Shown here: in pieces, positions 14,734-23,457 of the stretch
Layout of the letters: every line of letters begins with the position of its first letter
How positions within the stretch are numbered: position 1 is the first letter of the stretch
Virus record (IMG/VR): IMGVR_UViG_3300044621_000375
Coordinates: 1-39,721 of that record
Origin: a virus
Reading direction: 5' to 3' (one strand)
DNA: 39,721 bases
Program-made: the position numbers and the translations under genes
Notes under the pieces: model-generated
Database searches by the model: none
What the model was told of the DNA's origin: nothing
The model's input: only the letters and a program-made list of their open reading frames with translations

Positions 14734-14746
14734 AGGAGTCTTGATT

Positions 14747-15400
14747 ATGTCCAGTATCGTAAAGTTCTCTAAAGCCGGTCTGCCTGCCGTCACGTCGCTC
14801 ACTACGGCGTTGCGTCAGATGGAAAACGAAGTCGCCGCCGTTGGCACCGCCATCTTAAAGATGGACAAGACGGGTCACTGGGTCTTTGGCGCAGATCAAA
14901 CCGAGGTCGAGGATGACAGCCTGTGGGCCGTCAATCCGTTTAGCTTCGTCCACGGCTACATCGCGTGGGGTGATGGTGAGGTGCTAGGAGAGAGCATGGT
15001 GTCTGTCTCCGAGCCGTTGCCAGAACCGCCGGCGGCGCCGCCGCAAGCTCGCAAGGGCTGGGAGAAGCAAGTCGGTCTGTCGCTGAAGTGCATCAGCGGC
15101 GAGGACACTGGCCTTGAAGTGCGCTATACCACGACGAGCGTGGGCGGTAAGCGCGGAGTGCAGACGTTGGCGGTGGCGATCGCCGAGCAGGTCGATAAAG
15201 ACCAAGCGAAGCCGGTCGCTATCGTGCGTCTGGGCAAGGAGCACTACCAGCACAAGTCCTACGGCCGCATCTTCACGCCCGTCTTTGAAGTCGTGCGCTG
15301 GATCGGCATGGAAGGTGACGCTCCTGAGTCTGTAGAGGCAGAGGCTCCTGCGGTAACAGAAGCCGCTGCCCCCACGGGTCGTCGGCGTAGAGCCGGCTAA
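14747..15400 (+). CDS. Putative ssDNA-binding or replication accessory protein
   Basis: 217 residues. ATG at 14747 is preferred over TTG at 14741 because AAGGAG (14733-14738) then lies eight bases upstream. The N-terminal half (about 1-95) has WVFGADQTEVEDDSLWAVNP and a conserved aromatic region. A Pro/Ala linker follows at 86-100. The second half is beta-rich (VGLSLKCISGEDTGLEVRY, HKSYGRIFTPVFEVVRW) and ends in an acidic stretch and a basic TGRRRRAG tail. It sits between the DUF2800 nuclease and the polymerase, where related modules encode a DUF2815-type ssDNA-binding protein, but direct resemblance to DUF2815 was not recognised. Confidence 0.5.
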   Translation: MSSIVKFSKAGLPAVTSLTTALRQMENEVAAVGTAILKMDKTGHWVFGADQTEVEDDSLWAVNPFSFVHGYIAWGDGEVLGESMVSVSEPLPEPPAAPPQARKGWEKQVGLSLKCISGEDTGLEVRYTTTSVGGKRGVQTLAVAIAEQVDKDQAKPVAIVRLGKEHYQHKSYGRIFTPVFEVVRWIGMEGDAPESVEAEAPAVTEAAAPTGRRRRAG

Positions 15401-15635: not shown

Positions 15636-15841
15636 CCAAACCGTCATGGAAAAACCTAGTCCTGACGCTGGAGCAGTACCGCGTGCTGATGGAGCGCAAG
15701 CGCTGGGCACGCATTAACAACGAGCGCGTGCGGTACAAAGATTTAGTGGAAGCTTGGGGTATCAAGCAGCACCACATGGCGACCGCCGTGTTTCGCGGTA
15801 TCAAACAATACGACTACATTCTGTGGAAAGAACAGCAGTGA
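15632..15841 (+). CDS. Small basic protein, possible helix-turn-helix
   Basis: 69 residues, start in an ATGA overlap with the zinc-ribbon gene. The sequence is basic and helical; YKDLVEAWGIKQHHMATAVF could form a helix-turn-helix and the C-terminus is rich in K, Y and W. It might be a DNA-binding regulator or replication accessory factor. No family was recognised. Its stop overlaps the GTG start of the polymerase (GTGA), so the three genes are translationally chained. Confidence 0.6.
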   Translation: MTKPSWKNLVLTLEQYRVLMERKRWARINNERVRYKDLVEAWGIKQHHMATAVFRGIKQYDYILWKEQQ

Positions 15842-17793
15842 TTCTGTGGGTCGACTTCGAGACGCGCAGCCGCTACGACTTGAAGGTCGGCGGCGTCTAC
15901 AACTACGCGCAGGACGCGAGCACCGAAGTGCTGTGCATGTCCTACGCGTTCGATGACGAGCCGGTGCGCACTTGGCTCCCGATCCATCCGTTCCCCGAGG
16001 CCGTTGCTAACTTCAAGGGCCAGATCCGCGCGCACAACGCCGCCTTCGAGCGGCTTATCTTTTGGTACGTCCTGCAGCTCAACTACGACTTGACGCAATT
16101 CTACTGCACCGCTGCACAGGCGCGTGCCAACTGCCTGCCCGGCAGTCTTGAAGATATTGGCCGCGCGCTTGGCGCCGGTATGCGTAAAGATCATCGAGGC
16201 GCGGCGCTCATTCGCCAGCTCTCGATTCCAAAGCCCGACGGCACCTTCCGCAGCGACCCCGACCTGATGGCCGAGATGATCGCCTACTGCGAGCAGGACG
16301 TGCGCGCCATGCGTGCAGCGAGTCAGGCCATGCGTGACCTGTCCGATGCGGAGCTCGCCGACTACCAAGTCAACGAACGGATCAATGACCGTGGCGTGCT
16401 CGTGGACGTGCCGCTTTGCAAGGCCGCCGTTACCTACGCCGAGCAGGAGCTCACCGACATCGAGCAGCTCGTCGTTGAGATCACCGAGGGCGCGCTCACG
16501 TCGGTGCGCTCGCCGCGTATGCGTGAATGGGTCGCCGAGCGTTTAGGGCCAGAGGCCCGCAAGCTCATGACCGTGTATAAAGACGGCGAGAAGAAAACGT
16601 CGATCGACAAGGCGGTGCGCGCTAACTTGCTCGCCGTCACCGATCCTGAACAGGTGCCGCCCGACGTGGCGGATGTTATCCAATGCGCTGACGATCTGTG
16701 GGCCTCGTCGGTCGCTAAGTTCAACAGGCTCGCCAACCTAGCCGATGTTGAGGATCACCGTGTCAGAGGAGCATTTGTATTTGCTGGTGGAAGTGCCACG
16801 GGGCGCGCTTCAAGCTATGGCGCCCAGGTTCACAACTTCACGCGTCGCACTCTTGGAAACGCTGATGCCGTCCGACATTCAATGGTCAGAGGTCACAGTA
16901 TCGTTCCAGAATATGGGCGACGGGTTACAGATGTACTTAAAGGAATGTTGCGACCCGCTCTCATCCCCACCCGAGGTCACGTTTTCGTCGTGGCCGACTG
17001 GTCAGCGATAGAAGCCCGCGCAACACCTTGGTTGTCTGCCGACTTGCAGGCCAACACCGTGCTCGATGTGTTCCGCGCAGGCGGCGACATATACAAGCGC
17101 GAAGCCGCCGGTATCTACAACACCACGGTCGAGGCCATCACCGACGAGCAGCGCCAGATCGGCAAGGTCGCCATCCTGTCGCTTGGCTTCGCTGGCGGCG
17201 TCGGTGCGTTCGCGGCGATGGGTCGCGGCTACGGCATCACCATGAGCGAGTCCGACGCGCAGCGCATCGTCAACGCCTGGCGCCGCGCTAACCCATGGGC
17301 GCTGCGCTACTGGGGTGCGCTAGAGAACGCGTACATGCGCGCCATGCGCAATCCCGGCCACGAGTTTAGCGCCGGACGTGTGACGTATTTGTACGACAAG
17401 TTGCATCTTTGGTACATGTTGCCAAGCGGACGTGTGCTCAATTATCCGTTTGCACGCCTCGAAGAGGATGGCGTATCGTACTTGAAAGCCGCATGGAAAC
17501 CCGCAGCCGACGCGACCGAATGGCCTCGCGCTCGACTGTGGCGTGGCCTTGCGTGCGAGAACATCACTCAGGCGACCGCCAACGATCTACTGCGCGAGAG
17601 CTTGCGCGAGCTGGATCGTCGAGGGCTGTCGACTGTCCTGCATGTTCACGACGAAATTGTTTTGGAGTGCCCCGAGGACGCCGCCGATGCGACCGTCGCC
17701 ACGTTGCGAGAGGTCATGTGCACGGCGCCCGCGTGGGCTGAGGGGTTTCCGCTGAAGGCCGATGTGAAGGTCATGAAGCGGTACGGGAAATAA
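15838..17793 (+). CDS. Family A DNA polymerase with 3'-5' exonuclease domain
   Basis: 651 residues from GTG at 15838, overlapping the upstream stop. The exonuclease domain has WVDFETRSRYDLK (D-x-E, residues about 4-6), HNAAFERLIFW (Exo II) and AYCEQDVRAMR (Exo III, Y-x3-D). The polymerase domain has motif A VVADWSAIEAR near residue 385, motif B RQIGKVAILSLGFAGG near 440 and motif C VLHVHDEIVLE near 600. All catalytic acidic residues are present and there is no 5'-3' exonuclease domain. It is the replicative polymerase of this phage. An in-frame extension upstream to 15754 overlaps the previous gene and is unlikely. Confidence 0.95.
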   Translation: MILWVDFETRSRYDLKVGGVYNYAQDASTEVLCMSYAFDDEPVRTWLPIHPFPEAVANFKGQIRAHNAAFERLIFWYVLQLNYDLTQFYCTAAQARANCLPGSLEDIGRALGAGMRKDHRGAALIRQLSIPKPDGTFRSDPDLMAEMIAYCEQDVRAMRAASQAMRDLSDAELADYQVNERINDRGVLVDVPLCKAAVTYAEQELTDIEQLVVEITEGALTSVRSPRMREWVAERLGPEARKLMTVYKDGEKKTSIDKAVRANLLAVTDPEQVPPDVADVIQCADDLWASSVAKFNRLANLADVEDHRVRGAFVFAGGSATGRASSYGAQVHNFTRRTLGNADAVRHSMVRGHSIVPEYGRRVTDVLKGMLRPALIPTRGHVFVVADWSAIEARATPWLSADLQANTVLDVFRAGGDIYKREAAGIYNTTVEAITDEQRQIGKVAILSLGFAGGVGAFAAMGRGYGITMSESDAQRIVNAWRRANPWALRYWGALENAYMRAMRNPGHEFSAGRVTYLYDKLHLWYMLPSGRVLNYPFARLEEDGVSYLKAAWKPAADATEWPRARLWRGLACENITQATANDLLRESLRELDRRGLSTVLHVHDEIVLECPEDAADATVATLREVMCTAPAWAEGFPLKADVKVMKRYGK

Positions 17794-17839: not shown

Positions 17840-20143
17840 ATGCTAGCCTTCGTCGACTATTTAGCACAGGCCGCCCCAGAAGGCGAGACAATTCTTCTGG
17901 TGCGCCAAAAGCCACGCATGGAAGACGGCGCCCCGGCGCTGCACGGCGACGGTACGCCGAAATACACTTGGCCGCCGTGTCTGCCTGAGCGTTACCGCGA
18001 GGACAAGCCTGCCGCTTGGTACGGCAACACCGCGCTCTTCGTGCTCGATCGGTTCAAGGACGGCAAGCTCTCAGCAGGCACCGCGTTCTCGAAACACGTC
18101 GCGTTCATGGTGCTCGATGACGTGGGCACCAAGTCCAAAATTCCGCCTCTAGAGCCGTCATGGAAGATCGAAACCAGCCCCGGCAACTACCAGTGGGGCT
18201 ACACGTTCGACTATGACCACCAGCCAACGAAAGAGGATTTTGCCGCTGCGATTTTTGCGATCGCCGAGGCCGGTTACACCGACAAGGGCGCGATCAACGC
18301 GGTACGCAACTTCCGCATCCCCGGCTCTATTAACTTAAAGCCTGGGCGCGATAACTTCCCTGCGCGCCTCGTTGAGTTTTCTCCTATTCGGTTTTTCACT
18401 CTCGATCAAATCTGCCGAGAGCTGAACGTCACGCCTGCGGTCGCTGACACCGCCTCGTATCAGCCGCTACATATCGAGGACGACGGCAACGACGCCGTGC
18501 TCGTGTGGCTCTCCGAGCAAGGCCTCGTCATCAATCCGCCTAATAGCACAGGCTGGGCGGGCGTCGTGTGCCCGAACCACGCCGAGCACTCCGACAACAA
18601 CCCAGAAGGGCGTTATCACCCGGTGCACCGCGCGTTCGACTGCTTCCACGAGCACTGCGGCGACTGGAACAGCGAGCGGTTCCTCCGTTGGGTCGAGGCC
18701 GAGGGCGGCCCGGCGACGGGCTACGGCCTGCGCGATGAGCTGCTTGCAAAGACGATGGAGTCCGCGCTCTCGAAGATCACGCCGACCGACTCGTATCCTG
18801 ACGCTGCGCAACAGGTCATCGAAGAGGTGCGCCGGCGTGAGCTTGGGCGACTGACTAAGAATGAATGGTACGAGCGTTTCGCCTATCTGCAGGACGACGA
18901 CGCGTACTTTGATATGGTCGAGCGCCGTGAAATTTCGCGCGGGACGTTCAACGCACTTTTCCGTCACGTTTCCTCTAAATCCATACGCACCGGCCGGGCC
19001 ATCGAGGCGTCCATCTGCTTCGATGAGCACCGCCAAGAGAAGGGCGCGCACTCACTCGTCGGCGTCACTTACGCGGCGGGCGAGGATATTCTCGTCTCGC
19101 GTGCTGGGCTCGTGTATGGCAACCGTTGGCGCAACGCGCGCCCGGTCGTGAGCGGTGGTGGTGACGTGTCGCCGTGGCTTGCACACTTCGAGCACATGAT
19201 CCCTGAGCCTGCCGAGCGCGCTCATGTCCTAAGCGTGATGGCCTATAAAGTCCAGCACCCCGATGTAAAAATAAATCACGCGATATTACACGCCGGCCGG
19301 CCGGGCTCCGGTAAGGACACCCTCTGGGCGCCGTTCTTATGGGCTGTTGGTGGGCCTCTTAACGTAAACGTGTCGATGGTGCGCAACGAAGAGTTGTCGA
19401 GCCAGTGGGGCTATGCGCTCGAAGCGGAAATCATGGTCATCAACGAGCTGCGACAGGCTGAGGCCAAGGATCGCCGCGCGCTGGAAAACCAACTGAAACC
19501 GATCATCGCGGCTCCGCCTGAGCTTCTGCCCGTCAACCGTAAGGGTCTACACCCGTACGATGCCTTAAACCGCATTTTCGTCCTTGCGTTCTCCAACGAG
19601 CGCGCCGCTATCAGCCTGCCTTCTGACGATCGTCGCTGGATGGTCGTCTGGAGCGAGGCCGAGCGTCTGCCTGAGCGTGACGCGGCGCGCCTCTGGGCTT
19701 GGTATAAGGCCGGCGGCTTCGAGCAAATTGCCTGTTGGCTTTCCTCATACGACGTTTCCAAGTTCAACCCCGGCGCCGTCCCACCGATGACAGAGGCCAA
19801 GGCCATCATGATCGACGCCGGCATGTCGACGGCCGAGTCGTACCTCGTCGAGATGATGCGCGCCCGCGCGGGCGAGTTCGCGCGCGGTGTGATCGGCTCG
19901 CCGTTCCACGCGGTGTGCGATCGCGTCGCCGGCGCCATGCCTGCAGGCGTCAAGGTGCCGCAGTCGGCGCTCTTGCACGCGCTGCGCGAGGCTGGGTGGC
20001 AAGACTTAGGGCGCGTCGCGAGCGGCGACTACCCGAGCAAGAAGCACTTATTCTGCGCGCCTGATATGGTCACGCGTAGCAAGTCGGAGCTCAGGCGAGC
20101 GGTGGAGCCCACCGCGCCGCCGTCACTCGCCGTCGTTAAATAG
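17840..20143 (+). CDS. Primase-helicase: AEP-like primase, zinc motif, SF3-type helicase
   Basis: 767 residues, start ATG with AAGGAG upstream. The N-terminal domain (1-200) has HVAFMVLDDVGTKSK, the D-D metal site of archaeo-eukaryotic primases, and NFRIPGSINLKPGRDNFPAR, the conserved RepB-primase-type motif. A Cys/His cluster follows (VVCPNHAEHSDNN, later FDCFHEHCGDW), likely zinc-binding. The C-terminal ATPase has Walker A GRPGSGKDT near residue 485, Walker B EIMVINELRQ near 533 and a FVLAFSNERAA sensor segment, as in phage primase-helicases with a DUF5906 or SF3 domain. It should prime and unwind DNA for the adjacent polymerase. Its last 21 bases overlap a convergent mini-gene. Confidence 0.9.
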   Translation: MLAFVDYLAQAAPEGETILLVRQKPRMEDGAPALHGDGTPKYTWPPCLPERYREDKPAAWYGNTALFVLDRFKDGKLSAGTAFSKHVAFMVLDDVGTKSKIPPLEPSWKIETSPGNYQWGYTFDYDHQPTKEDFAAAIFAIAEAGYTDKGAINAVRNFRIPGSINLKPGRDNFPARLVEFSPIRFFTLDQICRELNVTPAVADTASYQPLHIEDDGNDAVLVWLSEQGLVINPPNSTGWAGVVCPNHAEHSDNNPEGRYHPVHRAFDCFHEHCGDWNSERFLRWVEAEGGPATGYGLRDELLAKTMESALSKITPTDSYPDAAQQVIEEVRRRELGRLTKNEWYERFAYLQDDDAYFDMVERREISRGTFNALFRHVSSKSIRTGRAIEASICFDEHRQEKGAHSLVGVTYAAGEDILVSRAGLVYGNRWRNARPVVSGGGDVSPWLAHFEHMIPEPAERAHVLSVMAYKVQHPDVKINHAILHAGRPGSGKDTLWAPFLWAVGGPLNVNVSMVRNEELSSQWGYALEAEIMVINELRQAEAKDRRALENQLKPIIAAPPELLPVNRKGLHPYDALNRIFVLAFSNERAAISLPSDDRRWMVVWSEAERLPERDAARLWAWYKAGGFEQIACWLSSYDVSKFNPGAVPPMTEAKAIMIDAGMSTAESYLVEMMRARAGEFARGVIGSPFHAVCDRVAGAMPAGVKVPQSALLHALREAGWQDLGRVASGDYPSKKHLFCAPDMVTRSKSELRRAVEPTAPPSLAVVK

Positions 20144-20191
20144 CCAAGCGCAGATGACCGCCACGATCGCGCCCACAAATAGCGCGATCAT
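20123..20191 (-). CDS. 22-residue predicted single-pass membrane peptide
   Basis: ATG at 20191 overlaps the stop of the upstream 82-residue gene as ATGA. The product is MIALFVGAIVAVICAWLF followed by NDGE, essentially one transmembrane helix with a short acidic tail. Its 3' end runs antisense into the last 21 bases of the primase gene. Coupling, composition and its place at the end of a compact operon support a real gene, but it is very short and could be chance. Function unknown. Confidence 0.5.
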   Translation of the reverse strand: MIALFVGAIVAVICAWLFNDGE

Positions 20192-20198
20192 GTGGGCG
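20165..20198. other. Two mutually exclusive 8-bp hairpins
   Basis: GATCGCGC (20165-20172) can pair with GCGCGATC (20182-20189), and CGCCCACA (20170-20177) with TGTGGGCG (20191-20198). Both stems are perfect and they share bases, so only one can form. They cover the start of the membrane-peptide gene and the end of the one before it. Confidence 0.45.
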
Positions 20199-20436
20199 GC
20201 TCTAGGCGTCGCAGTAGCTCGCGCTCTAAGGCGTCATACCCTAGAGCGCGAGCGGCTACCGCCTGCAGCATGATCACGGCGCGACTACACGGCGCGCAGG
20301 CTAGGATGCCTTCGAGCGCCTTGCGGTAGCGCTCCGCGCGCTTGTCTGGGCTCTCCCATCGCGCGGCGGCCGGGCCGTGTGGCACGTCATCGGCGCCGAA
20401 TAAATCGCGCAGCTCGTCGTCTGATATTTTCGCCAT
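20188..20436 (-). CDS. Small helical protein, unknown function
   Basis: 82 residues from ATG at 20436. N-terminal acidic helix MAKISDDELRDLFGADDVP, then a basic and Ala-rich region (RWESPDKRAERYRKALEGI) with a CAPC pair, ending in a leucine- and arginine-rich helix. No recognised domain. It lies three bases after the stop of a 38-residue gene and is coupled to the membrane peptide downstream. Codon composition is very GC-rich, like the rest of this leftward unit. Confidence 0.6.
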   Translation of the reverse strand: MAKISDDELRDLFGADDVPHGPAAARWESPDKRAERYRKALEGILACAPCSRAVIMLQAVAARALGYDALERELLRRLEPPT

Positions 20437-20559: not shown

Positions 20560-20826
20560 TCAGCGCCTCTCTGCCTGTTGTATCAGCTCCGTCAGCGTTT
20601 TCAACTCGCCGCGCAAGCTCTCGAACGCCTGGCGCTCCTGCTCCGCCCAGGCGTCACCCTCAGCGCGAGCGCGCGCGTACTCAGGCGGCGGCCATGGGTC
20701 GAAGCCCACGCCGTCGCATGCCCAGCATGTGATGGCGCCGCCGTCCTCGTCGACGGCAAGCGCGTCGTACCCTGAGCCCGCGCAGCACGGGCAGCGCTCG
20801 CGCGCTGGCGATGTTGGCCGGGTCAT
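20560..20826 (-). CDS. Small protein with DnaJ-type CxxCxGxG zinc motifs
   Basis: 88 residues from ATG at 20826, which overlaps the previous stop as ATGA. Two motifs, CPCCAGSGY and CWACDGVGF, match the CxxCxGxG repeats of DnaJ zinc domains, so one zinc ion is likely bound by four cysteines. An acidic loop lies between them. The C-terminal half is a charged helix with EQERQAFESLRGELKTLTEL. Such mini-zinc proteins are common in phages, but their role is not established. An extension to 20835 adds three residues and is less likely. Confidence 0.65.
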   Translation of the reverse strand: MTRPTSPARERCPCCAGSGYDALAVDEDGGAITCWACDGVGFDPWPPPEYARARAEGDAWAEQERQAFESLRGELKTLTELIQQAERR

Positions 20827-21305
20827 GAGAACCACCGGCGCGCGATCGTCGCACCGAGCTCACGCCGCGCAGCCTCGCGGATCGACTCGCCGGTGCTCTC
20901 GTCGGTGCGCAGCCAGTCCCAGATGGCGCTCGCCATCACGCGGCACGCCGCCGCGCGGTACTCCATCGACCAATATTGGCCGGTGGTGTAGTCGAGCCCC
21001 TCATCGGCCGAATATGAGAGCCGGCTCGATTGATCAAGCGCCGCCTGCAGCATCGCGCCAGTGATCGACGGCCGCAGCTCGATGTACCGCAGCATCGCGC
21101 GCGCATGATGTAGCTGGGTCGTGATCGAGCGCGCGTCGCTGCGGTACGCGGCGCGCCCGGCGGCGTCGCGCCAGTCGGAAATATAGTTGCGCGGGTCGAG
21201 TCCGGGTCGCTGGCGGATCCAGCTGTACAGCGCCTCGATAATGTTATCGCGCAGGGTATCGGCCGGCGGGTAGCTGGCGGCGGTGGTCGATTGTGTGGTC
21301 AACAT
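20823..21305 (-). CDS. Helical protein, unknown function
   Basis: 160 residues. ATG at 21305 is chosen because it follows a terminator-like hairpin and a GGAG run; the frame extends to 21365 but would run through the hairpin. The protein starts with a Thr/Ser-rich segment (MLTTQSTTAASYPPAD), then helical segments such as LRDNIIEALYSWIRQRPGL and ITTQLHHARAMLRYIEL, ending with ELGATIARRWFS. No domain was recognised. First gene downstream of the attenuator-like hairpin in the leftward unit, and coupled to the zinc-motif gene. Confidence 0.6.
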   Translation of the reverse strand: MLTTQSTTAASYPPADTLRDNIIEALYSWIRQRPGLDPRNYISDWRDAAGRAAYRSDARSITTQLHHARAMLRYIELRPSITGAMLQAALDQSSRLSYSADEGLDYTTGQYWSMEYRAAACRVMASAIWDWLRTDESTGESIREAARRELGATIARRWFS

Positions 21306-21370: not shown

Positions 21371-22096
21371 TCAGGCGGCGCTCGATATGGCCGCTGCAGC
21401 TTCGAGCGCGACGCGTTCGGCGGTGTCGTCGCTGTATGGCAGCGCGTCGTCATGCGCCATGCGGCACGCGGCGATCGGCGCCTCAGCCACCATGCGATCG
21501 CGCAGTGGCATGACGATAACGACCATATCCGGGTCGGTGTCGCACACGATCGCCGGGAATTCGCCGCGCTGCAGCACGCGCACCGCATGGTGACCCGCCT
21601 TCGCCTTCGAGATGTTGCGCGCGATCGCGAACGCCGCGCACGCATCCGTCACATAGTCCGAATTGAGCACGGCCGGCGCGCCATCGAGCAGGCCTTCCTC
21701 ATCGCCTTTCGGGACGACCCTGCGCCAATCAGGGAATTGGCCGTCGAGCGGGCGCCCGGTGACGTGACCCGTCGGCGTCGCGATCGAGAGAGAATTCTGC
21801 GCGCCGTCGATCGTGATCGACACGTCGCACGCGCCCAGCGACTTGCCGCGCGCGTACTCGCCGCCGAACTGCTTGAGCGCGGCATCGAGTAAGTCATTCG
21901 GAATGATCACGGGCGCTGCGGCGCTGCGCACGCCGCGCGCATGCGCGACCAGCATGCGGTGGCCGTCGGTCGCGATGACTTTGCCGCGCTGGGTGTCGAG
22001 AAAGACGCCGCAGAGATAGCGGCGAATGTCGCCATCGGCCGAATGGGTACGCGCAGCGCGCAGGGTCGAGAGAGATACAGTGAGAGTGTATTGCAC
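21371..22096 (-). CDS. Shortened DNA polymerase sliding beta-clamp-like protein
   Basis: 241 residues from GTG at 22096, with AGGAG eight bases upstream. It aligns by eye with E. coli beta-clamp domain II from its first residue: IRRYLCGVF (25-32), IATDGHRML (41-49), DGQFPDWRRVVPK (118-130). It then appears to skip the first half of domain III and resumes to reach VIVMPLR (193-199), the clamp C-terminus, and adds about 42 residues rich in Ala. Domain I is missing. Residues matching the peptide-binding pocket are kept: R25, L28, T43, G45, H46, R47, P122, R126, V127, M196, P197, L198. It could be a mini-clamp or a decoy for clamp-binding proteins. No clamp loader is encoded in the window. Confidence 0.8.
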   Translation of the reverse strand: MQYTLTVSLSTLRAARTHSADGDIRRYLCGVFLDTQRGKVIATDGHRMLVAHARGVRSAAAPVIIPNDLLDAALKQFGGEYARGKSLGACDVSITIDGAQNSLSIATPTGHVTGRPLDGQFPDWRRVVPKGDEEGLLDGAPAVLNSDYVTDACAAFAIARNISKAKAGHHAVRVLQRGEFPAIVCDTDPDMVVIVMPLRDRMVAEAPIAACRMAHDDALPYSDDTAERVALEAAAAISSAA

Positions 22097-22112
22097 GGTA
22101 GTAGCTCCTAGG

Positions 22113-22256
22113 TTACTTGCGAATGAGGTCATCGAGGAGAGCGGCGACGCCGGCCAACAGGCCGGCGCCGATCGCGAGGTTATAGTCGTCGAGCACGATC
22201 GCGGCGCACAGCACGCCGACGCACGTCAGCACGATGGCATCGAGCACGCGGGTCAT
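22113..22256 (-). CDS. 47-residue predicted two-pass membrane protein
   Basis: ATG at 22256 overlaps the stop of the upstream gene as ATGA; the stop is 16 bases before the clamp start. The product begins MTRVLDAIVLTCVGVLCAAI, turns with VLDDYNLAI and continues GAGLLAGVAALLDDLIRK, giving two hydrophobic helices joined by a short acidic turn. No known family. Its position directly before the clamp gene, and translational coupling upstream, support it being a real gene. Confidence 0.6.
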   Translation of the reverse strand: MTRVLDAIVLTCVGVLCAAIVLDDYNLAIGAGLLAGVAALLDDLIRK

Positions 22257-22564
22257 GAGCGCACCCATCGCGCGGCCTGCCATGTGCGCACGTTTTCAGC
22301 TGCAGCGCGCAGCTGGCTGAGCACGCGCTCGCGCTCGTCGAAGTCGGGAATCGCGATATACACGTCGGCGCCCATGTTCCGGTCATACGCGAACATGACG
22401 TCAAACTGGGTGAGCTCAGGCTCGCCCAGAATGACGTACTCGAGGTCGCGATCAATATCGACGAAAACGACCCGGCCGTCGTCGAGCCGGGTCGCAGCGA
22501 TGCGTTGGCCGGCCGGGCTATACATGCGGCCGGTGTTGAACGCGAGCACGGGACGGGCGCTCAT
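22253..22564 (-). CDS. Small alpha/beta protein, unknown function
   Basis: 103 residues from ATG at 22564, overlapping the stop of the first gene of the unit (ATGA). The N-terminus MSARPVLAFNTGRMYSPAG leads to beta strands with ATRLDDGRVVFVDIDRDLEY and ELTQFDVMFAYDRNMGADV, then a C-terminal helix ERERVLSQLRAAAENVRTW. No recognised domain. An extension upstream to 22609 would overlap the previous gene further and is unnecessary. Confidence 0.6.
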   Translation of the reverse strand: MSARPVLAFNTGRMYSPAGQRIAATRLDDGRVVFVDIDRDLEYVILGEPELTQFDVMFAYDRNMGADVYIAIPDFDERERVLSQLRAAAENVRTWQAARWVRS

Positions 22565-22794
22565 GAGCGCACCGCCTGAGTGCCCGCGTCCTCGATGTGG
22601 GCCATGCACCCGTTGATCATCGCGACGCGATCGGCGACGCCTAGCTCGATCGCGAGCTCGAGCGCTGCAGCTTGCGTTGCGCGGCGGCGGGCGCTGCGGT
22701 GGACAATCGAGAGGATGCGCACGGCGGCGTCGGGCATCTCGACGGCGACGAGCTTGCGGGCGATGGTGAACTGGCGTTGTTCGTTCTTAGTCAT
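22561..22794 (-). CDS. Small helical protein, first gene of leftward unit
   Basis: 77 residues from ATG at 22794. GGAG lies nine bases upstream of this ATG but only three bases from the alternative ATG at 22800, so 22794 is preferred. The sequence is helical and Ala/Arg-rich (QRQFTIARKLVAVEMPDAAV, HRSARRRATQAAALELAI). No domain was recognised. Being the first gene after a strong leftward promoter it is probably expressed early. Confidence 0.6.
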   Translation of the reverse strand: MTKNEQRQFTIARKLVAVEMPDAAVRILSIVHRSARRRATQAAALELAIELGVADRVAMINGCMAHIEDAGTQAVRS

Positions 22795-22816
22795 GGTCAT
22801 GTGCTCCTATCTGCGC

Positions 22817-22879: not shown

Positions 22880-23039
22880 AGATTATTTGTTTAGGCGTTC
22901 ATCAGGCGGTCATGCGGTTTTTGGGTCATTTGGGTCGCGTTTGGGTCATGGGCTCGAGCTCGATGACCCATGAGCGCGAGCCTGAAAACATAGTGCGCGC
23001 GCATCGTTTGGGTCATTTGGGTCATGTTTTTATATCAAT

Positions 23040-23067
23040 TTGTAAAGCTGTATTTTTACTGTATAGG
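23040..23067 (+). promoter_or_regulatory. Possible rightward promoter overlapping LexA-like box
   Basis: TTGTAA (23040-23045), a 16-base spacer and TATAGG (23062-23067). The match is moderate. The -10 lies inside the LexA-like operator, so a bound repressor would block it. No gene starts close downstream; the nearest rightward start is 23493. Confidence 0.35.
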
Positions 23068-23076
23068 CATACAGCT
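23057..23076. promoter_or_regulatory. LexA (SOS) box-like operator
   Basis: The segment TACTGTATAGGCATACAGCT has the CTGT-N8-ACAG core (CTGT 23059-23062, ACAG 23071-23074) of LexA boxes in gamma- and betaproteobacteria and agrees with the E. coli consensus at 15 of 20 positions. A further direct CTGTAT lies 11 bases upstream (23048-23053), giving an AGCTGTAT/ATACAGCT inverted repeat across 23046-23076. Confidence 0.55.
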
Positions 23077-23457
23077 CTCGCCACATCAGCGCGCAAATGT
23101 TTCGGCGCTCCGACTTTTTTCGCGTGACAAAATGACCCAAATGACCCAAAGGGCGCCCAGCTCCCCGGCGCTTGGGTCATTTGGGTCATCGGCCAACGCG
23201 TGACCCAAATGACCCAAAGCTCGATGGCCGCACGTCCGCGCTGGCGCGCGCACCGGCTCGCGCACCATGACCCAAATGACCCAAAGCTCGAGCGCTGGCG
23301 ATCGCCGACGGCGTGCTCGAGCTCGAGGGCTGGCGGGCTGGCGGCCGGTGGCCTGCAGGCCTGCGGGCTGACGGGCTCGATGGCGGCGCGCTCGATTCGA
23401 TGGGGGGGAGGGCCCGAGCGACCGGCCAAAAAAGCTATGGAGGGTTCGCAAAAAATT

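Follow-up and report, generated by a model that had tools for sequence, protein, structure and literature searches.

Why would a phage carry only part of a bacterial sliding clamp? The question is raised by a gene in the window analysed here, the whole 39,721-nt stretch (positions 1 to 39,721) of IMG/VR virus record IMGVR_UViG_3300044621_000375. The window is phage DNA: alongside genes for the portal and terminase it encodes a family-A polymerase, a SNF2 helicase, DUF2800 and a DUF2815-type protein. The portal, terminase and DUF2815 assignments come from comparing similarity and gene position with annotated phages, and a Pfam search with the DUF2815-type gene gave no match. The gene of interest, here termed the mini-clamp gene, lies on the minus strand (Table 1). 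Its GTG was accepted as the correct start because it is preceded at a suitable spacing by a ribosome-binding site and because relatives begin with ATG or GTG at the equivalent position, while a longer alternative start, the ATG at 22132, overlaps the gene upstream. An Rfam scan of the window returned no RNA, and the clamp protein matched none of the defence-system models.

Table 1. The mini-clamp gene, its parts and its neighbours, in window coordinates.
Feature	Position	Strand	Basis
Phage family-A DNA polymerase, without canonical clamp-binding motif	15754..17793	+	Context, motif scan
Primase/helicase-like replication protein, left border of island	17840..20143	+	Context
82-aa protein, no assigned function, end of island	20188..20436	-	ORF list
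91-aa protein with zinc-type motif CPCC..CWAC	20560..20835	-	ORF list
160-aa protein, no assigned function, directly downstream of clamp gene	20823..21305	-	ORF list
Mini beta-clamp coding sequence, 241 aa, GTG start	22096..21371	-	Pfam/PHROG/PDB homology, AlphaFold model
C-terminal extension of 42 residues (200-241), two predicted helices	21374..21499	-	Model, alignment
Clamp domain IIIb (second half of domain III), residues 138-199, bearing NxxY and MPxR of the pocket	21500..21685	-	Model, profile to beta 320-366
Clamp domain II, complete, residues 1-130, most of pocket subsite I	21707..22096	-	Pfam, profile, model
AGGAG ribosome-binding site	22105..22109	-	8-nt gap to GTG at 22096
56-aa hydrophobic microprotein, probably membrane, directly upstream of clamp gene	22113..22283	-	Hydrophobicity by eye
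Island protein, 103 aa, no assigned function	22253..22564	-	ORF list
First gene of minus-strand island, 79 aa, no assigned function	22561..22800	-	ORF list
Iteron-like array, TTGGGTCA in 12 copies, both orientations, around AT-rich stretch	22920..23286		Between island and terminase genes

Homology searches placed the protein firmly among beta clamps. A single-sequence search matched PDB beta clamps over domain II (E ~1e-7), the mini-clamp family profile matched them at E 1e-29, and a fold search returned beta clamps only, among the matches listed. All 43 family members searched matched Pfam DNA_pol3_beta_2, though the window protein itself scored 22.4 bits, under the 27-bit cut-off. The match to PHROG 3007 ran end to end (E 3.7e-28, protein 17-212 in long-start numbering to profile 3-186 of 190) and was shared by all 43 aligned family sequences. 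The RusA domain was matched in none of the 43 members (E 0.1), and a RusA identity was rejected. The label 'RusA-like Holliday junction resolvase' attached to PHROG 3007 and PHROG 12598 is seemingly wrong and has been carried over into many RefSeq phage records; in Bcep781 the mini-clamp gene coexists with a separate gene annotated as RusA-like.

Relatives have been deposited as 'DNA polymerase III beta subunit', as 'fragment' or as 'RusA-like Holliday junction resolvase', so the mini-clamp family is already catalogued, under misleading names, and is not peculiar to the window. PHROG 3007, the proteins named 'DNA polymerase III beta subunit' in EP23, Acinetobacter phage 4316 and AH2 (gp20) and the 'DNA Pol III b subunit fragment' of Bcep781 (gp15) form one family, and the sequences from EP23, 4316 and Bcep781 share the truncation of the window protein, whereas the window clade adds a helical tail of 42 residues. 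AH2 gp20 (209 aa), placed here by length and name only, is likely a mini-clamp already in print (PMC3483164). No study of the truncation or its role was found in the open literature searched, where both seem undescribed; the 2011 survey by Kazlauskas and Venclovas may mention such proteins.

The earlier note, made from the letters alone, had the protein begin where domain II of the E. coli clamp begins, lose domain I and the first half of domain III, and gain about 42 residues at its end, and structure prediction bore this out. An AlphaFold model of the window protein as a monomer, built from 43 phage sequences, reached a mean pLDDT of 91 and a pTM of 0.82, and its fold fits domains II and IIIb: VIA-align superposed model residues 1-200 onto E. 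coli beta 124-366 (175-178 aligned, Z ~16, rmsd 2.5-2.9 Å). The superposition passes over ~65 residues of E. coli beta that make up the first half of domain III, and the family profile aligns the second piece of the mini-clamp to beta 320-366, so that beta ~255-319 is missing along with domain I. A minimal distant relative encoded beside polA (L070, 189 aa) gave an equivalent superposition over its full length; the core therefore stops with MPxR, and what follows in the window clade, the tail of 42 residues, has been added to it; this tail is present in close relatives of the window protein and variable over the family. Many mini-clamps outside the window clade end in a short Trp-bearing tail, ~10-20 residues past MPxR and often after Pro-x or Pro-Ser/Ala (for example L034, L035, L036, L082, L084, L096, L098, L109, L113 and L114). 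A mixed MAFFT alignment in which the IIIb helix was matched to that of IIIa was overruled by the NxxY motif, the profile and the structure. The missing parts could in principle have been encoded elsewhere, but a domain-II profile search, under whose threshold the window's own gene falls, detected no second clamp gene in 25 records.

The same truncation proved widespread. A tblastn search matched 71 phage records, among them Escherichia phage TheodorHerzl, which infects E. coli K-12, and at least 418 IMG/VR contig stretches encode a relative, some full-length clamps included. The mini forms are recognizable by the ATDGH motif, which lies ~40 residues from the start, compared with ~170 in host DnaN. 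The 'new minimal clamp architecture' offered in the earlier note is thus real as an architecture, and no description of it was found; its novelty gives way to a widespread, already catalogued family. Full-length phage clamps (PHROG 947; Pseudomonas phage 73 and KL1) are clamp homologues too, but are untruncated at ~370-390 aa. Being shortened relative to DnaN, the mini-clamp could be imagined as the functionless, decaying remnant of a captured dnaN, a reading we consider extremely improbable since the conservation pattern contradicts it: boundaries are identical, frames intact and pocket residues invariant across 47 diverse members, many of which share just 22-30% identity with the window protein. 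For the mini form, a single origin was not rejected (p-AU 0.26, from few columns and long branches).

To define what has been conserved, residues were compared between the 47 diverse mini-clamps and 77 host DnaN sequences, using the peptide-pocket and dimer-interface residue lists of the E. coli clamp (PMC11139829). The pocket pairs named in the earlier note, from R152/R25 through to M362-P363-M364/M196-P197-L198, all hold, and further counterparts were found for Asn320 (N145), Tyr323 (Y148) and Arg365 (R199). Among the mini-clamps, R25, T43, G45, H46 and P122 are invariant (100%), followed by L28 (97%), P197 (93%), M196 and R199 (91%), R126 (89%), Y148 (87%) and N145 (82%), while the R176 position (R47) holds R in 87% and otherwise K. 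The interface residues Ile78, Arg103, Phe106, Ile272, Leu273, Glu298 and Glu304 all fall within parts that have been deleted, either domain I or the segment at ~255-319. Because both sides of the dimer interface sit in the missing domain I and first half of domain III, normal ring closure is impossible.

Residues facing DNA have changed as well. Q149 and K198 of E. coli beta touch DNA (PMC5042465); the K198 position is K in 100% of the 77 DnaN sequences and D or E in ~85% of mini-clamps, and the Q149 position is replaced in most mini-clamps. The first helix of domain II, which lines the channel, is ~four residues (~one turn) shorter in mini-clamps, and their median pI is near neutral (6.6) where that of DnaN is acidic (5.3). 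The mini-clamp thus shares with DnaN (TIGR00663; 6ap4, 6fvl, 8vat) the fold, the way domains II and IIIb are placed relative to each other, and the residues of the peptide pocket, but it is set apart from DnaN because three defining features tested were absent: it falls short of the curated NCBIfam TIGR00663 cut-off (33.4 against 137.65 bits), it does not have three complete domains per chain, and its ring-closing interface is gone. Judged by its residues, the mini-clamp looks like a peptide-binding module and not a conventional ring, and the pattern suggests selection for peptide binding rather than DNA encirclement.

A ring of unusual symmetry is a further reading. Clamp rings comprise twelve beta-alpha-beta-beta-beta units, and by predicted secondary structure and general knowledge of the clamp fold each mini-clamp chain would contribute three, so that four chains might make up the twelve, with the unpaired half of domain III leaving edges open. 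With all known interface residues gone and the pore lysine reversed, we regard such a ring as unlikely.

The genomic setting points to an accessory gene. In the window clade, the mini-clamp gene belongs to an island of small ORFs that occupies the opposite strand between the primase and terminase genes; the membrane and zinc-motif microproteins described earlier as neighbours are indeed there, as a same-strand hydrophobic ORF and a CxxC..CxxC ORF. Four relatives (L310, L311, L312 and L313) have the primase-terminase interval intact and the clamp absent, and the island is exchangeable. In these four contigs it holds other small ORFs of no assigned function, many overlapping by a few bases, and is likely a reservoir of early accessory genes. 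The mini-clamp was found in 6 of 20 long contigs whose PolA is 66-78% identical to that of the window; some of the 14 negative contigs are cut near the island, and L310-L313, with intact borders, are the firm negatives. On the PolA tree, its presence changes at least three times, counting negatives that include possibly cut contigs. The mini-clamp is therefore an accessory gene of patchy distribution. The iteron-like array next to the island has equivalents at the corresponding place in relatives, some built on a different word (the TTGCCCAC type in L014 and L024), and is a possible replication origin or operator set; GC skew over the whole window gave no clear origin signal.

Elsewhere in the family, the neighbourhood suggests a different use. 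In Acinetobacter phage 4316, BcepC6B, L070 and L084, the mini-clamp gene directly follows polA in a replication operon with VRR-NUC and helicase genes nearby, and in Pseudomonas phage 73 a full-length clamp gene occupies a comparable position adjoining polA. This placement makes a serious rival of the proposal that the mini-clamp serves the phage as an adaptor in replication, or as a processivity factor needing no clamp loader, with a pocket that receives the phage polymerase or further replication proteins while the mini-clamp itself is monomeric or part of a complex. Consistent with it are the detection of PolA in 15 of 25 mini-clamp records, the less acidic character of mini-clamps relative to host clamps, and QVGLSL, a sequence that fits the hexameric clamp-binding motif and was noted for the region 14741-15400 of the window and its relatives: within the window clade, 6 of 7 DUF2815-type (SSB-like) proteins keep it with minor variation. 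Family B polymerases, an alternative client, were not detected in 13 records.

Several observations weigh against an adaptor. Closely related PolA proteins manage without a mini-clamp in intact syntenic loci, as described above, and the acidic residue at the channel lysine position and the shortened channel-lining helix count against it too. The canonical clamp-binding motif had no matches in 21 phage PolA sequences against 3.5 expected; clamp-binding motifs are loose, which limits such a scan, and PolA may still bind. The PolA of Pseudomonas phage 73, whose clamp is full-length, has one internal QLVLL match, a single case that carries no weight as evidence. The genome of Pseudomonas phage USP_25, which was deposited as complete, encodes a mini-clamp with no DNA polymerase annotated (over the 49.9 of 62.5 kb inspected) and no match to PolA or PolB profiles over the whole record; this phage appears to rely on the host replicase. 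On balance, we find the adaptor possible but less likely than not.

We favour, with a probability of roughly 45%, a non-ring competitor for clamp-binding peptides, probably those of host proteins. This explanation builds on what was computed here, namely family membership and fold, a conserved pocket, the loss of the interface on both sides, a reversed DNA-contact residue and a patchy accessory distribution, from which we infer a monomeric state, peptide binding, host targets and a benefit to the phage. The gene product is a beta-clamp derivative reduced to domains II and IIIb, the parts that form the pocket for QLxLF-type peptides. Most likely remaining off DNA, it would vie with the host clamp for motif-bearing host proteins, candidates being the clamp-loader delta subunit, Pol III alpha, Hda, the repair polymerases and MutS/MutL, and host replication or repair would be shifted in the phage's favour. 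Against delta as a target stands its additional contact with a clamp loop, which the mini form may have lost. An E. coli clamp engineered to be monomeric binds delta ~50-fold more tightly than the dimer does, and cannot tether Pol III or support processivity (PMC11139829). This behaviour makes a natural monomer with an intact pocket a plausible competitor and, by analogy, its tight delta binding would make the clamp loader an attractive target. That the mini-clamp is a natural monomeric imitation of the clamp, widely phage-borne, which traps host replication and repair proteins and above all the clamp loader, is put forward tentatively, at less than even odds.

The suggestion in the earlier note of a decoy that occupies clamp-binding partners of the host has accordingly been strengthened by several independent observations, but shares the field with an adaptor role that gene neighbourhood genuinely backs in some lineages. 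In USP_25, simply shutting off host replication would work against the phage itself, since this phage seems to need the host replicase. Competitor and adaptor roles may both hold, in different phages.

Interference with clamp function by a phage protein has a precedent in Twort Gp168 (PMC11139829), which differs in that it binds the DNA channel of the clamp, whereas the mini-clamp would imitate the partner-binding side of the clamp. For phage genomics, the family corrects the database label 'RusA-like resolvase' in many phage genomes. Much of bacterial DNA metabolism converges on the pocket of the sliding clamp, which is also targeted by drugs, and a phage protein that has this pocket, apparently without the ring, would be a natural competitor that could reveal which clamp partner phages must control.
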